From Candidatus Kapaibacterium sp. (GTDB taxonomy: Bacteria > Bacteroidota > Ignavibacteria > Kapaibacteriales > NICIL-2): a DNA stretch of 64,000 nucleotides. The notes beneath the pieces were generated by a model that was not told the origin of the DNA, did no database searches, and saw only the letters and a program-made list of their open reading frames with translations. The stretch covers positions 538,670 to 602,669 of the forward strand of contig JANWWF010000001.1 of NCBI GenBank assembly GCA_025055755.1, given 5' to 3'. The position numbers and the translations under genes are program-made. This document shows positions 15,547 through 48,193 of this stretch, piece by piece (within the stretch, counting starts at the first letter, position 1; each line of letters opens with the position of its first letter).

Positions 15547-16523
15547 TGAATCATCCGATCAGGTGCTGCAATTCCGCGAAAGACGAGGAACTTGTACACG
15601 CGTGGCTCCAGCCAGAGCATCGCAAATGCAAAAATGGCGCCAGCAATTAAATCAACCACGTAGTGATAGCGCAAGTACACCGTTGCAACAATCAAGCTGG
15701 CACCAATCACTGTCACGGGCATTCGCAATGGACTTCGACATCGCCACGCGAGAATAATCGTTAGCAGTGTCATCATAGTGTGACCGCTTGGGAAGCAGTC
15801 ACGATTGACCACACGTTCGGGGAATGGCTCGCCCGGCTCAATGCCGCCTCCCTCGTTGACTAAAGCACGCAAATACGGCGTTAGCCATACCCCTGGAAGC
15901 TCGCGGTCCAATTGGTGAAAGTCATGCAGGGTAAATCGCGGTCCAATCGCGGGTAGTGCAAAGTAGGCAAGGTACGACACATAAAACCCAAACACAATCA
16001 TCCTTCCAAAGCGGAGCATTGTCACAGTGCGGCGCTGGGCAAAAAAGCTCAGAGCGACAGCAATGGGAAGCAGGTAAAACGACACATAACACACTTGCAA
16101 GTACTCCGTTATCCACGGATTGGCAAACTGCGCAAACCAAACCGTTGGATCGACACCAAAGAGCATACGATCCAGCTTGATGAGTAACCAGTCGTAATCG
16201 CGCTGATGGAGGGCAGGGACAAGGAGCTGACTTTGCTGGTACATCGGATAGACCATCGGGATCACATAAAAAAAGCGCAGCAGTCGCACACCCCGATGCT
16301 CTGTTGCCATGTTCAGCCATGCAATTGCAACAATCGCAATCGCAAAGAGAAAATTCGTTACCAGTATCATTGTTGCCTTTGGCACTCGCGGATAGAAAAG
16401 CAAGGCAAGCGTAGAGTAAATCGCCATAATCGCCAGCGTGTACCAATCAAGCGCAGTTAGCACGCCCACTATTCGCAATTCTTCCTGGCCTAACCGCTGG
16501 CGCAGGGTTGCAATCCGATTCAT
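15543..16523 (-). CDS. PAP2-family membrane phosphatase/phosphotransferase
   Basis: The protein has about 326 residues and six or more hydrophobic helices. The PAP2 catalytic blocks are visible late in the sequence: [14 protein letters not shown] (about residue 245) and [13 protein letters not shown] (about 285), giving the conserved His residues and Asp. This topology resembles the inositolphosphotransferase-like branch with an N-terminal helix bundle. The lipid or undecaprenyl phosphate substrate is unknown. I chose the ATG at 16523, which overlaps the ksgA stop codon as ATGA, rather than the longer ORF start at 16562. Confidence 0.85.
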
Positions 16524-17332
16524 TGGCGTTGTGCAAGAGTATCCAAAAATGAAGCAAGCCACTGAAACTGCTGAGGACTCACCTGCTCGGCTCGACAGTG
16601 CATCAAAGGTAACTGTTCAAGCATAGGTGGAAAGGCTCCCACTAAAGACTGAACATACCGCTCTAATGCATTGCGCAACTTTTTACGTCGCTGCTGAAAG
16701 GCTGCCTTCACAAGCTGCATGGTACGCCTGTTTGCATCACTACGGAGAGACACACCGTTACTGTCGATCGCAACAACCGACGAGGTAACCTCGGGGCGCG
16801 GATGGAACGCCGACGGGGAAACGTCAAAGAGAACCTGCGCTCGCTGCGCAACCAACGCAGTGGCAACCGATAAAATGCCGTAAGTCTTCGACCCTGGTTG
16901 CGCCACAATCCTTGCTGCTACCTCTTTTTGCACCATCAGCACAATGCGGCAAATACGGTCAGTACGTTCGTAGAGCCAAAACAAAATTGGTCCCGTCAAA
17001 TGGTAGGGTATGTTGCCCACCGCAATCAGTCTACTTCCATCAGAAATGTCCAGCTGATCAAGTTCCAGAGAGCGAATATCTCCTTCGACAATGCGAAGAT
17101 GAGTCACAGAGCCAAGCTCATCGCGCAAAACAGAAACTGCGCGATGGTCTATTTCAACAGCGATTACTTGGCGTGCCGGCATAGTAACAAGATGGCGCGT
17201 CAATGCGCCTGTCCCTGCACCTATCTCGAGCACTGTATCCTGCTGCCCTGCATTGAGTGCTTGGGCAATGCGGTGGGCAATCGCAGAATTCCGTAGAAAG
17301 TGTTGGCTCAGGCGACGGCGCGGGCTAATCAT
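16520..17332 (-). CDS. rsmA: 16S rRNA dimethyladenosine transferase
   Basis: KsgA/RsmA dimethylates two adjacent adenines near the 3' end of 16S rRNA. Evidence: RLSQHFLRNSAIAHRIA at the start, SAM-binding VLEIGAGTGALTRHL near residue 35, the catalytic NIPYHLTGPI block (NxPY), and FHPRPEVTSSVV. I start at the ATG at 17332; an ATG at 17353 and a TTG at 17359 are in frame. The start overlaps the stop of the HIT gene by 8 bases. Two operon neighbours, YbeY and this protein, both act in 16S maturation. Confidence 0.94.
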   Translation of the reverse strand: MISPRRRLSQHFLRNSAIAHRIAQALNAGQQDTVLEIGAGTGALTRHLVTMPARQVIAVEIDHRAVSVLRDELGSVTHLRIVEGDIRSLELDQLDISDGSRLIAVGNIPYHLTGPILFWLYERTDRICRIVLMVQKEVAARIVAQPGSKTYGILSVATALVAQRAQVLFDVSPSAFHPRPEVTSSVVAIDSNGVSLRSDANRRTMQLVKAAFQQRRKKLRNALERYVQSLVGAFPPMLEQLPLMHCRAEQVSPQQFQWLASFLDTLAQRQ

Positions 17333-17846
17333 CGCGCGAGCGTGCAGTTGCATCGGCAAAGGCGCGGGAAAGTTTTCGTTGTTCGTTGGAGAGAAATTCA
17401 GAAATCACTTTAACCTCGGCAAGGACAGGCATAAAATTGGTGTCTCCATTCCATCGGGGCACCACATGCACATGGACATGATCAGGAAGTCCTGCTCCCG
17501 CGGTACGTCCCAGGTTAGTACCCACGTTGAAGCCATGCGGAGCATGAGTGGTACGGAGTACGCGGAGTGATAGCTGCACCAGCTCGATGAGAGCATGAGC
17601 CTCGTAATCTGCAAGCTCCACCAAATCTCCCACATGTCGGTATGGCGCTATCAGCAAATGACCACTGTTGTAGGGGAAGCGATTCATGATAACAAACCCC
17701 AACTCACCACGGTAGACAACGAGGTTCTCACTATCACACTCTGGCGGCGCCTGTGCTGCAGCACAAAGAAAGCAGCTTCCATCTGCCTTTTCTTGGGAAA
17801 GCGATTGAATGTACTGCGATCGCCATGGGGACCAAAGTTGGTTCAT
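17325..17846 (-). CDS. HIT-domain nucleotide phosphorylase/hydrolase
   Basis: This 173-residue HIT protein begins MNQLWSPWRSQYI and has a CFLC motif near residue 26 that can bind zinc. The histidine triad is HVHVHVVPRW near residue 122. This combination fits the bacterial Ap4A phosphorylase/hydrolase-like branch, acting on dinucleoside polyphosphates in the cytoplasm. Its start codon shares one base with the stop of the upstream gene (TAATG), so translation is likely coupled. Confidence 0.9.
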   Translation of the reverse strand: MNQLWSPWRSQYIQSLSQEKADGSCFLCAAAQAPPECDSENLVVYRGELGFVIMNRFPYNSGHLLIAPYRHVGDLVELADYEAHALIELVQLSLRVLRTTHAPHGFNVGTNLGRTAGAGLPDHVHVHVVPRWNGDTNFMPVLAEVKVISEFLSNEQRKLSRAFADATARSRDD

Positions 17847-43268: not shown

Positions 43269-44084
43269 TTATTGTTCAGCCTGACGAGCAAGGGACAGAG
43301 TAAACATGATAGCGCTAAGCTTCATCCCGCCACTTGAAGATAGCGTTGTCAACGGCAAGTGATAATGAATGCCCGGACGGAGAAACCACACGTCGCCCAC
43401 CGAAATTCGTGATTCGACCCGAAAAACAGCAAAGGCAGACAGACGGTTTACCTCCAGCATATCTCCATCGCGAACAGTGGCAGTGTTCCCTCCATCAGCC
43501 ATTTGAACCCCGATTACTTCCCCATTTGGAAGGCGGACGGTGTTTTGGAGGAGCGTCTTTGTATGCACCGCACGAGCAATTGCCATGTAACCAACATAAG
43601 CACCGACCCCAGCTGTAATTGCCTCTGTCTGCATTGGAACAAGACGCACATATGGCTGTGCCCACAGGGTAAAAAAGTCAAAACTCATCCGCTGGCGAAA
43701 TTCGACCGGAATCCCCGAAAAGCGCTGCATGCCATCAAGGGAGGAAAAGGTCAGAGGTTCTTGCTCTCGATACTGCGCTACCAGACGACGGTAATCAAGT
43801 CCACCACTGATGCCAAGCCGCAAAGCAGAGGATTTCTCAGCTGGAAGCTCATAGAAGATGCCTGCCAGAATGCCACTGCCACTTCCTTTCTCAAACGGAG
43901 GACATAAACACGTATCAAGGTACTGCCCTTGCTGAAGGAGAATTGGTACTCCGACAATAACTCCTCTGTAGTCATAGAGTGTTACTTCTGGTGCGATCGG
44001 CGAGGCTTCTCCCCGACGAACGAGTTGCGCATCAACTGTCGCACTTGCTATTACTGCAAGGGCAAGGAGCTTATACCATTGCAT
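43269..44084 (-). CDS. Outer-membrane beta-barrel-like protein
   Basis: From the ATG at 44084 the 271-residue protein has a signal peptide MQWYKLLALAVIASATVDAQ. The rest consists of alternating strands with Gly and aromatic residues, such as SGILAGIFYELPAEKSSALRLGISGGLDYRR and a C-terminal MFTLSLARQAEQ. This suggests a small outer-membrane barrel of unknown function. The open frame extends to 44483, but the upstream part overlaps the divergent RsmB-like gene, is Cys/Asn-rich and is not coding-like. It lies between rpoZ and the divergent gene pair. Confidence 0.7.
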   Translation of the reverse strand: MQWYKLLALAVIASATVDAQLVRRGEASPIAPEVTLYDYRGVIVGVPILLQQGQYLDTCLCPPFEKGSGSGILAGIFYELPAEKSSALRLGISGGLDYRRLVAQYREQEPLTFSSLDGMQRFSGIPVEFRQRMSFDFFTLWAQPYVRLVPMQTEAITAGVGAYVGYMAIARAVHTKTLLQNTVRLPNGEVIGVQMADGGNTATVRDGDMLEVNRLSAFAVFRVESRISVGDVWFLRPGIHYHLPLTTLSSSGGMKLSAIMFTLSLARQAEQ

Positions 44085-44180
44085 TAGGCACCTCGACGCA
44101 GAGGCATGATCGAAAACTGCGGCTGCGAATACTGTATTGCAAAGTATTTTGGTGTTGTTGTAGACACAGGCTAAGACGTA

Positions 44181-45569
44181 ATGAGCGTTGATCCATTGAG
44201 TACAGAAATTACTCCTGTTATTATTGAACGAGCGCCTCTTTTCGAACAAGAGGGCCCGCGCAGCGTTGCTATTCGAAGTCTTTTGCGGATTGATACTGCC
44301 GCGGTTGACGCAGAGCATGTTGTACGCGGCGAGTTGATTGCACACCCACACTGGGATCAATTCGAGCAAGCACTCTACCAAGAACTTGTCTATGGGACAC
44401 TCCGCTGGCGTGCAAAACTCGATTGGATACTGACCGGTTTCTACCATGGCGAATTCCCAAAGTGTATGCCCGCAATTCAGCATGCTTTGCGCGTGGCGTT
44501 GTATCAGATTTTGATGATTTCCAAAGTACCCCCGATGGTTGCAATAGATTCTTCTGTACGAATCATCGAGCGTCTGAAGGGAAGCAGCTCAGCAGCAACG
44601 TTAGCAACGGTGCTGCGAAGTATTGCCCGAAATGTTGCAGGGATTCGATATCCTCCCCGCGAGCAAGCTGCGCTCCATTTTTCCGTTGTGCATTCACACC
44701 CTCTCTGGCTTGTCCAGCGTTGGATTGCACGATGGGGAGAAGAAGTAGCAGAGCAAATGCTGGCAGCAAATCTCGAACGGCCGCCACTTTATCTTGCCGT
44801 CAATCGCGTGTGCGCCACTGAAGACCAATTCCAGCAGTGGCTGCAAAGTAACGCCCATCCGTTCGAACGCTCCCCAATCACAGCTCGTGTCTATCGGTTG
44901 AATCCCTTCACAGACTACTCTGCACTACCCCCCTGGCAGCAAGGGTGGTGTTACCCTACCGATCCAATGTGGACAGTTGCCGCAGAATTAGTTGAATCGA
45001 TTAGACCAACCGATGTACTCTATGCCAGTTCTGCTCCGACAAAAGCGCTTTTGCCTTTGGGAGATGCAGTAGCACAGTCTAAAGCTCATCTTGCCGTATG
45101 GAGTCCAACCCCATCGACTGCAGAGTGGATCGAACACCAATGGCAGCGCTACCGCTGGCCACTACCCGAAATTCTGAACCATGACTGGGAAGGTTCATTC
45201 GACCTTGTGTATGCTGACCTCCCTTCCAGCGCAATTGGATTGTGGCGGCGAAGACCAGAACTCAAGTGGCGATCTGATTCGCTGGACGTTCGTCGAGCTG
45301 GAATTGCTGCGCGAAATATGCTGGCAAACCTTGTCTCATCAGTCCGCCCCGGTGGTTACTTATTAATCACCGTCTCCTCCACAGAACCAGAAGAAACAAC
45401 CGGTCTTGTCGATTGGCTTATAGGTATGCGTCCTGACTTTCGTCTTGTTCCCATTTCCACAGAGCGCGTTGCTCCCTCATTAGTGCAATCGAATGGAACT
45501 GTCCAGTCCTTGCCACATTTGCATCGGTGTGATTCTGTGTTTATTGCTTTATTCCAGCGCATGCCATGA
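44181..45569 (+). CDS. RsmB-like protein lacking catalytic residues
   Basis: The N-terminal third is a NusB-like helical domain (SVAIRSLLRID...ALYQELVYGTLRWRAKLDWIL), as in the rRNA m5C methyltransferase RsmB, and the C-terminal part has the same layout. However, the key motifs are eroded. The SAM-binding motif normally AAPGGKT reads ASSAPTKAL (282-290). Motif IV, normally DAPCSG, reads ADLPSSAIG (345-353). Motif VI, normally TCS, reads VSSTEPEE (398-405). Both cysteines of the RsmB mechanism are thus Ser. The downstream arginine patch LWRRRPELKW is kept. I infer a non-catalytic RNA- or protein-binding paralogue. It overlaps the next gene by ATGA. Confidence 0.82.
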   Translation: MSVDPLSTEITPVIIERAPLFEQEGPRSVAIRSLLRIDTAAVDAEHVVRGELIAHPHWDQFEQALYQELVYGTLRWRAKLDWILTGFYHGEFPKCMPAIQHALRVALYQILMISKVPPMVAIDSSVRIIERLKGSSSAATLATVLRSIARNVAGIRYPPREQAALHFSVVHSHPLWLVQRWIARWGEEVAEQMLAANLERPPLYLAVNRVCATEDQFQQWLQSNAHPFERSPITARVYRLNPFTDYSALPPWQQGWCYPTDPMWTVAAELVESIRPTDVLYASSAPTKALLPLGDAVAQSKAHLAVWSPTPSTAEWIEHQWQRYRWPLPEILNHDWEGSFDLVYADLPSSAIGLWRRRPELKWRSDSLDVRRAGIAARNMLANLVSSVRPGGYLLITVSSTEPEETTGLVDWLIGMRPDFRLVPISTERVAPSLVQSNGTVQSLPHLHRCDSVFIALFQRMP

Positions 45570-48193
45570 AACTGTGCCTCGTAATACTTGCTGCCCTAAC
45601 AATTCTACTCCCTGCGCAAGATGCAGGGTGGGAAATACATCCGTGGATGCGGTTCGAATGGGAACGACTGCGGTATAGCAATCCACAAACTGGTTCTATT
45701 CCTCCGCAGGCTGCTCTTCGTGACGCAGAATATGCAGCTCGCATAGCCTCTTTACAGCAAGAGAAATCTGCCTCGACTGCATCATCGCAGGTGCAACCAA
45801 TAGGTCCCACAAATGTTGCTGGTCGCACTCGTGCTTTGGTGATTGATCGTAGAGCACCAAACGTTCTGGTCTGCGGAGGCGTTACCGGAGGAATTTGGCG
45901 TAGCATTGACTACGGACAATCGTGGGTGCGACTGACTCCTCCAACTCTTGTCCCGCATGTTTCATGCATAGTGCAGAGCATCCAGGACCCAAACACCTGG
46001 TATGCTGGAACAGGAGAAGGTCTTTCCACGACTGAACGCAGGACCTCGACGTTGCTGCGGACTATTGGAACCGGTACTGGAATTTATCGCTCTACCGATA
46101 ATGGGCTGTCTTGGTCATTGATCTCACCCTTTCCTACTGCACAGCCAAACTCTACACCTGCTCAATCGTGGCAGATTACCTGGCGACTTGATCTTTTGCC
46201 CACCCCTCAAGGGGAGCTACTTTTCGCTGCATGCTACAGTGGCATCTACTCTTGGAATGGAAGCACATGGAAAATGGAAATCGGCGATAGTACATCTCCC
46301 CCATTCTGCACGGACCTTGTTACAGCCGCTGGGAAAGTGTATGTGGCTCTCGGCGCAACTGACGAGGGAATACGTCCAACAAACTATGGAATCTTCGAGC
46401 GACTTCCTAATGGCAGTTGGCGAAATATCACCCCTGCGGGATTCCCAACAGTGCGGCGCATGATCCTTGCTGCTGCGGCTGATGGTTCCATCCTTTACGT
46501 GCTAACTCAAGCACCTCGGGCGTGGTCTCAACGCTACATGAGCTTTGCATCTACTCACACTTTATGGCGCTACTCAGCCGCAACAAACCGATGGGAAAAC
46601 TGTACAGAATGGATTGATGCACTACTGAGAAGAACTGAATACTCACTGGAGACACTGGGCGGTTACTGCATGGCTTTGGCTGTTCATCCCCGGCAACCAA
46701 ACGTTGTGTTCGTTGGGGGCACTGATCTTTTTTCCTCCCACGACGGTTGTCAAAGCCTTGCGTTCCACCTTGGCGGTTATCCCTACATTGTCGAAGCAGG
46801 AGCTTTGCATCCAGATGTTCACGCTCTTGTATTTGATCCAACTGACTACAATCGTCTCTACGTAGCAACCGATGGAGGAGTGTATCTAACTACTTCCCCT
46901 CTTCAACAGGGCGAGACCTATTGGACAGCCCTCAACAATGGACTGACGACCACACAAGTGTATCATGTTGCTCTTGATAAACTGTCCTCCGACAGCCGCC
47001 TTGTCATTGCTGGCTTTCAAGACAATAGCAATTGGTACACACCCGCCGCAACGTACGGTGTCCCTTGGATATTTGCTGGCGGAGGCGATGGCTGTCGAGT
47101 TCTTGTTGGTGATGGTCGCCGGCTGCTTTTTGCTACCTCGCAGTTTGGATATGTCTATGCTGTCGATGCAACAGAAGAAGAGCCACTCTTCCGTCCCTTA
47201 CCTTCTCTTCCCAAGAGCAGTAAGATGTTTGTTACCGAAATTGCATACGACAGAGCTACCAATACTCTCGTTGCAGCAGTAGACAATTCTCTTTATCGTC
47301 TCCGGGTTGATACACAAACTCAGGACTCATCCTGGCTGCATGCAGCATCCCTCCCGACATCCTCCCTGATCTCCACTATAGCTTTGCGAGGCTCTCGCGC
47401 ATTGGTAGGAACAGTAGATGGGCTCATCTATCGGGCAGATATTAGCACAGGCATAGTAGAACGGATTTCAGCACCTCTCCCTGCTGGCGGATTCATCGCT
47501 GCAATTGATTGGGATGAAGAGGACACCAATCGTATCATCGTCACCATTTCCAACTATACCTTGCCAAGCATCTTTGCAACCTGGGATAACGGAAGAAACT
47601 GGATAGCAGTCGGCGGCACACTCGATGAAGAAATGTACGGTTGGGGACCGTCGGTGCGAGTCGTGCGTTCTCTTCACCGAAACGGCAAACGATTGTATAT
47701 CGCAGGAACAAGTGTAGGGGCATTTACCGCCGATTCCCTCTCTCCGACAACTCAATGGCAACCTCTTGGGCTTACTTCTCTTGGAGCTCTTCCCGTTGAA
47801 GCAATTGATCTACGGTCCTCCGATGGACTGGTAATTCTTGGAACCCACGGCGGAGGAGTATTTGCCTGTACCCTCAATCCTTCTGCTGCTGCAACAGATA
47901 CTGTAGATTCCTCAGGCACCTTTTTCGTTGAGCAGTGCATTCCCCATCCCGTGAAGGACTACGCAATCATTAATGCTCATGTGCCCAGCTCGGGAGGAAC
48001 TATCACTCTCCATCTTTACGACCTTCAAGGACGGCTCCTTTTGCACCGCACCCAAGAAGTGCTTCGCCCAGGGGTCTTCTCTTTTGTTCTTTCGCCCTCA
48101 GAGTTTGCCCGTCAGCCTAACGGAGCTTACATCTACTCTGTTCAATGGAATAAACACCGCGCAACCGGTGCATTTATCCACATTGGCCAATAG
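45566..48193 (+). CDS. Secreted BNR/sortilin-like beta-propeller with T9SS domain
   Basis: The 875-residue protein has a signal peptide (LCLVILAALTILLPAQ), a linker, and a long beta-propeller region with Asp-box-like repeats (GIYRSTDNGLSWSLI, GIWRSIDYGQSWVRL, SIFATWDNGRNWIAV) typical of VPS10/sortilin or glycosidase-like propellers. The last 80 residues (VEQCIPHPVKDYAIINAHVP ... NGAYIYSVQW) form a T9SS type A sorting domain. No sialidase active site is evident. It should be secreted or surface-attached. It is coupled to the RsmB-like gene by ATGA and followed by a terminator. Confidence 0.85.
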   Translation: MKLCLVILAALTILLPAQDAGWEIHPWMRFEWERLRYSNPQTGSIPPQAALRDAEYAARIASLQQEKSASTASSQVQPIGPTNVAGRTRALVIDRRAPNVLVCGGVTGGIWRSIDYGQSWVRLTPPTLVPHVSCIVQSIQDPNTWYAGTGEGLSTTERRTSTLLRTIGTGTGIYRSTDNGLSWSLISPFPTAQPNSTPAQSWQITWRLDLLPTPQGELLFAACYSGIYSWNGSTWKMEIGDSTSPPFCTDLVTAAGKVYVALGATDEGIRPTNYGIFERLPNGSWRNITPAGFPTVRRMILAAAADGSILYVLTQAPRAWSQRYMSFASTHTLWRYSAATNRWENCTEWIDALLRRTEYSLETLGGYCMALAVHPRQPNVVFVGGTDLFSSHDGCQSLAFHLGGYPYIVEAGALHPDVHALVFDPTDYNRLYVATDGGVYLTTSPLQQGETYWTALNNGLTTTQVYHVALDKLSSDSRLVIAGFQDNSNWYTPAATYGVPWIFAGGGDGCRVLVGDGRRLLFATSQFGYVYAVDATEEEPLFRPLPSLPKSSKMFVTEIAYDRATNTLVAAVDNSLYRLRVDTQTQDSSWLHAASLPTSSLISTIALRGSRALVGTVDGLIYRADISTGIVERISAPLPAGGFIAAIDWDEEDTNRIIVTISNYTLPSIFATWDNGRNWIAVGGTLDEEMYGWGPSVRVVRSLHRNGKRLYIAGTSVGAFTADSLSPTTQWQPLGLTSLGALPVEAIDLRSSDGLVILGTHGGGVFACTLNPSAAATDTVDSSGTFFVEQCIPHPVKDYAIINAHVPSSGGTITLHLYDLQGRLLLHRTQEVLRPGVFSFVLSPSEFARQPNGAYIYSVQWNKHRATGAFIHIGQ

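Follow-up and report, generated by a model that had tools for sequence, protein, structure and literature searches.

A probable family-wide RsmB-derived pseudoenzyme retained under purifying selection in the order Kapaibacteriales

Results

The locus and its neighbourhood

The window, by which we mean the whole stretch of 64,000 nucleotides analysed, belongs to a genome (G000) of 2.33 Mb that is 99% complete. It carries on its forward strand an open reading frame (44181-45569) that runs from an ATG start to a TGA stop and comprises 462 codons with zero internal stops, in agreement with a preliminary description of this DNA. The features of the encoded protein and of the gene that follows it are given below.

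44181..45569, + strand: RsmB-derived pseudoenzyme, 462 aa, complete frame (ORF calling, Pfam and NCBIfam profiles)
44250..44645, + strand: NusB-like domain, residues 24-155 (Pfam, alignment, structure matches)
44646..44966, + strand: linker and ferredoxin-like RNA-binding domain, residues 156-262 (Pfam, alignment)
44967..45188, + strand: SAM-binding half of the methyltransferase domain, residues 263-336, eroded (alignment)
45024..45044, + strand: degenerate motif I ASSAPTK, residues 282-288 (alignment)
45219..45230, + strand: motif IV LPSS, residues 347-350, with Cys replaced by Ser at 349 (alignment)
45237..45272, + strand: conserved basic patch GLWRRRPELKWR, residues 353-364 (alignment)
45372..45383, + strand: motif VI VSST, residues 398-401, with the nucleophile Cys replaced by Ser at 399 (alignment)
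45566..48193, + strand: next gene, whose product is a secreted protein of 875 aa with a C-terminus resembling a sorting domain (the genus and G007 have this neighbour as well)

The stop codon of the pseudoenzyme gene overlaps the ATG of the next gene by 4 nt (ATGA, 45566-45569). This overlap, which agrees with the coupling proposed in the preliminary description, occurs in G000 and also in G005; it is not found in all family members, so that taken alone it is weak evidence. The gene is flanked on one side by coaBC, rpoZ and a divergent gene for a secreted protein, and on the other by HtrA and the secreted protein with the sorting domain, the neighbours being named by their sequences. This gene order is conserved: all three genera have full-length genes in this setting, and one rearrangement was seen, in the lineage of G004 and G001. 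The divergent upstream frame (window 43269-44483, minus strand) encodes a secreted-looking, fast-evolving protein with about 30% identity between genera. This frame was found in seven family genomes and lies next to the pseudoenzyme gene in each, including the rearranged G004. Its listed start overlaps the pseudoenzyme gene, and a later start is more likely.

Relationship to RsmB

Pfam searches with the window protein revealed a NusB domain (PF01029) at residues 27-150 with an E-value of 6e-18 and an RsmF-B_ferredox domain at residues 173-237. Only the C-terminal part of Methyltr_RsmB-F was matched (profile positions 74-198), and the SAM-binding part is therefore unrecognisable to this profile. 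All rsmB models of NCBIfam matched the protein, each below its own curated cut-off, with 187 bits for NF011494 (cut-off 319) and 131 bits for TIGR00563 (cut-off 269). Two intact members of the order exceeded the NF011494 cut-off with 442 and 433 bits, and the intact relative P0001 obtained 442 bits with NF011494 and 350 bits with TIGR00563. The RsmF model NF041567 gave 30 bits against a cut-off of 690 and the model for stand-alone NusB, TIGR01951, 32 bits against a cut-off of 88, the NusB domain being a fused one here.

The AlphaFold2 model of the window protein (pLDDT 87.9, pTM 0.85) found its best PDB match in E. coli Fmu/RsmB (1sqf), with a Z-score of 38.7 and an rmsd of 2.4 over 412 residues at 21% identity, in an alignment that runs end to end. 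Also, NusB structures matched residues 22-156 of the model with Z-scores of about 18. In the gene tree, the RsmB copies of the GTDB family form one clade with a support of 100, apart from both clades of RsmF/RsmB-F-like paralogues that lack the NusB domain, and the family thus does not lie outside RsmB.

The window protein shares with RsmB (Fmu/Sun; E. coli 1sqf/1sqg) the NusB-like N-terminus followed by the ferredoxin-like and Rossmann methyltransferase domains, the whole fold, orthologous descent and the basic patch after motif IV, as the preliminary description had proposed for the domain layout and the arginine patch. In contrast to RsmB, it lacks the SAM loop of motif I (APGGK), the release cysteine of motif IV and the nucleophile cysteine of motif VI, and it stays below all curated rsmB cut-offs. 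By domain order, fold, gene tree and synteny the protein is RsmB (16S rRNA m5C967 methyltransferase). However, we do not classify it as a functional RsmB, since tests for three catalytic features that define the enzyme showed each of them to be absent. We regard it as a pseudoenzyme that descended vertically from RsmB and has presumably lost its activity.

The extent of the changes was determined by alignment of the window protein with 20 intact orthologues. Motif I, D-x-C-A-A-P-G-G-K in the latter, reads Y281-A-S-S-A-P-T-K-A289, which amounts to replacements of Asp281 by Tyr, Gly287 by Thr, Gly288 by Lys and Lys289 by Ala, with Pro286 being kept. The loop is lost, as had been described, but the lysine of 'APTK' stands at a glycine position and the lysine proper of the motif corresponds to Ala289, so the earlier reading of ASSAPTK in place of AAPGGK needs this correction. 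Motif IV (PCS/T) is changed to P348-S349-S350 and motif VI (TCS/T) to V398-S399-S400; both replacements of cysteine by serine (C349S and C399S) were thereby confirmed.

Loss of catalytic residues across the GTDB family

The GTDB family comprises eight genomes (G000-G007) from three genera, in which seven orthologues were found, five of them in the six genomes of the window genus, one in G006 (second genus) and one in G007 (third genus). The four other copies of the genus are 51-58% identical to the window copy. For G001, contig C148 stops inside the next gene; the missing orthologue is most likely due to an assembly gap and was not taken as a true loss. Similarly, the two pieces in G007 do not represent a broken gene: they are the termini of a single gene that the contig boundaries interrupt, and the flanking neighbours are the same.

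Both catalytic cysteines are absent from all seven orthologues. The position of the motif IV cysteine is occupied by serine in 7/7, and the position of the motif VI cysteine drifts, with Ser in G000, Ala in G002, G004, G005 and G007, Leu in G003 and Pro in G006. Motif I is still partly recognisable in G007 (AVSGMK) and in G006 (TPVGTK) and is gone in the window genus. This motif pattern fits an early loss of the cysteines, after which the SAM site may have eroded in the genus. As the loss is common to the whole family, sequencing error and chance are excluded. A general loss of cysteines, for example due to thermophily, was also discarded, since Cys95 shows no variation and the two paralogues of the genome retain both of their catalytic cysteines. 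RsmB above the cut-off is present in 101 of 123 genomes of the order versus 0/8 in this family, and about 40 order members inspected outside the family carry APGGK, PCS/T and TCS/T, with G023 as the exception. Orthologues with intact cysteine motifs, which the preliminary description had regarded as contrary to its proposal, thus occur outside the GTDB family alone. In summary, this is a bacterial, family-wide RsmB pseudoenzyme and not one damaged gene. In the open-access literature, which misses most subscription papers, we found nothing on pseudoenzymes of bacterial rRNA methyltransferases or on RsmB of Kapabacteria.

The exception, G023, belongs to another GTDB family of the order and has a full-length RsmB frame without the nucleophile (L083 / L101:8674-10035). 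Its motif I reads RSGSA and its motif VI cysteine is changed to Arg, while the motif IV cysteine is kept. In m5C methyltransferases one cysteine attacks the cytosine and a second one aids product release, and mutating the release cysteine alone is often deleterious (PMC4510066). This chemistry would allow the pattern of G023, as a loss that begins with the nucleophile would be harmless. In the gene tree the G023 gene sits beside the dead family with a support of 100, and a constraint grouping it with its own GTDB family was not rejected (AU p 0.108); G023 was therefore not counted as a firmly independent second loss.

A NusB-type RsmB was not found at all in the near-complete genome G031 and in the class family f19 (G131, G139, G147, G163, G170 and G187), which keep intact NusB-less paralogues only. 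It is therefore dispensable in some relatives, and a role as a scaffold is not universal.

Target site and other rRNA factors

The 16S gene of G007, the sole family genome with a readable 16S, encodes C967; position 967 was assigned there from the E. coli motif ATTCGATGCAACGCG. Loss of the target base as the cause of enzyme decay was rejected on this ground, for G007 alone. On the contigs of G000-G006, including the single-contig genomes G004 and G005, no 16S gene covering position 967 was found. G003 has a 16S fragment only, and masking or MAG binning may explain the missing 16S genes in G000-G006.

RsmD-family proteins of full length, which are expected to make m2G966 at the neighbouring base, are present in 8/8 family genomes, and the window genome has its own separate NusB gene. 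Among the PF01189 and NusB profile matches of this genome, no second NusB-type RsmB was found, and the two intact RsmB/F-type m5C methyltransferases without a NusB domain are separate, old paralogues in the tree; a second, intact RsmB, the presence of which the preliminary description had left to be checked, is thus not among them. As NusB-less paralogues co-occur with intact RsmB in other order members, they are not a family-specific replacement. The weak fourth PF01189 match of the genome is due to a frame at window 16520-17359 (minus strand) that by sequence looks like KsgA/RsmA (16S adenine dimethyltransferase).

Selection and uneven constraint

A codon model gave an omega of 0.116 for the genus, compared to 0.084 for an intact family; the value for the genus is approximate because synonymous sites (dS) are saturated. 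The log-likelihood amounted to -6806 with omega at 0.116 and to -7176 with omega fixed at 1, which is worse by 370 units. For the SAM half, saturation (tree length 45) makes an omega per region meaningless.

The NusB domain showed a mean identity of 72% in the genus and of 70% among active enzymes, and the ferredoxin-like region 60% and 48%, respectively. In contrast, the SAM half showed 29% in the genus versus 57% among active enzymes and the catalytic half 51% versus 65%. Out of the residues that are invariant in active enzymes, all five genus members keep 31/60 in the NusB domain and 0/17 in the SAM half. Within the genus, 74 of 132 residues of the NusB domain are invariant, including new genus-specific ones such as R77 and R127. 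New invariants also surround the old pocket (Ser349, Ile352, Leu354-Trp355-Arg356-Arg357, Glu360, Ser367 and Arg372), and GG391-392 and the basic patch persist. Frames are full-length in five genus members despite a protein divergence of 42-49% from the window copy. The view of the preliminary description that the gene is maintained and not decaying is borne out by these five frames, by the omega values, by the intact predicted fold and by the selective retention of the NusB and RNA-binding parts. The RsmB gene has thus been retained under purifying selection after the loss of every methylation residue, which suggests that a non-methylating job is what matters, and this other job is probably to help build the small ribosomal subunit.

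Discussion

Our preferred reading, to which we assign a probability of roughly 60%, is that the dead RsmB keeps the non-catalytic, RNA-binding role of RsmB in 30S assembly at helix 31. With the usual SAM binding lost and a Cys-cytosine adduct impossible, the protein would not make m5C967. It retains the whole fold of RsmB, both the NusB-like and the ferredoxin-like domain, and the basic patch that flanks what used to be the active site. It would bind 16S rRNA around helix 31 (966/967) in 30S precursors at an early stage, and it may promote folding there ahead of the entry of S19 and other late proteins. A protein without both cysteines could bind RNA without becoming trapped on it. That the whole family converted its only NusB-type RsmB to a non-catalytic 30S assembly chaperone, with the target cytosine being kept, has in our judgement about an even chance of being correct.

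The proposed assembly role agrees with the phenotype of E. coli rsmB deletion mutants and with work on catalytically dead NOP2/NSUN1. E. coli cells lacking rsmB accumulate 17S precursor, RsmB acts ahead of the addition of S19, and the authors suggested that it speeds assembly or prevents misassembly, a function that was not separated from methylation there (PMC7056703). Catalytically dead human NOP2/NSUN1 rescues rRNA processing (PMC9561284), and a yeast Nop2 variant mutated at both cysteines served to complement a lethal nop2 deletion (PMC4510066). NOP2/NSUN1 (yeast Nop2, human p120) belongs to the same m5C methyltransferase superfamily, and its biogenesis role needs no catalysis (PMC9561284, PMC4510066). 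However, NOP2 is an active enzyme in nature and acts on the large subunit, whereas the window protein lost its catalytic residues in evolution; the two align from about residue 144 of the window protein on, and the NusB part is not shared. Similarly, NSUN4 of the NSUN4-MTERF4 complex is an RsmB relative with separate roles in methylation and subunit assembly (PMC3916286). In contrast to the window protein, NSUN4 is catalytically active and works via its partner, and its structure match begins after the NusB domain. METTL17/Rsm22, which is not known as an m5C RsmB/NSUN protein, resembles the proposed role in being a methyltransferase-like factor in small-subunit assembly. It contains SAM and an Fe4S4 cluster (PMC11785013).

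A catalytically dead protein might also have taken up another function, such as binding a different RNA or serving as a NusB-like partner in transcription or antitermination. The genus sits on a long stem of 1.0 substitution per site and has new invariants (the LWRR motif and, within the NusB domain, R77 and R127), and the NusB domain is the best-conserved part. These features would be compatible with such a change of function, but a separate NusB gene exists, the RsmB domain order and fold are maintained throughout, and no new domain or partner gene has been fused, so that we consider this conceivable but doubtful. We deem it improbable that another m5C methyltransferase makes m5C967 with the dead RsmB as its RNA-binding partner; the genome does contain two intact paralogues without a NusB domain and, as a precedent, the m5C methyltransferase of MTERF4-NSUN4 acts in ribosome assembly together with its binding partner (PMC3916286), yet the paralogues show no linkage to the pseudoenzyme gene.

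The remaining two explanations conflict with the pattern of conservation. An active methyltransferase with a non-canonical site, relying on serine or different residues together with a reconstructed cofactor pocket, would account for the retained fold, for Ser349 being fixed in 7/7 and for the persistence of GG391-392 and the basic patch in the genus. However, the nucleophile position of motif VI varies freely (S/A/L/P), unlike a catalytic residue, and the SAM half is the least conserved part, with none of its 17 ancestral invariants kept across all genus members, which makes residual catalysis very improbable. Decay toward loss would agree with RsmB being absent outright from other members of the order (G031) and of the class (f19) and with a SAM half that looks close to unconstrained, but it is already close to refuted by the full-length frames in all lineages, an omega of 0.12 with neutrality worse by 370 lnL units, the 74/132 invariant NusB residues and the shared neighbourhood across three genera.

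Returning to a dead RsmB that would still assist 30S assembly, its family addresses a long-open question: what conserved rRNA methyltransferases are kept for, the methyl group that they add or their hold on the rRNA while subunits assemble. A lineage that maintains the RsmB scaffold by selection and discards the cofactor site and both cysteines would be a natural separation-of-function experiment that reveals which surfaces count in the absence of catalysis. Also, the presence of a gene annotated as 'RsmB' does not imply m5C967. If the change in G023 was independent, conversion of RsmB to a non-catalytic form would have happened more than once.
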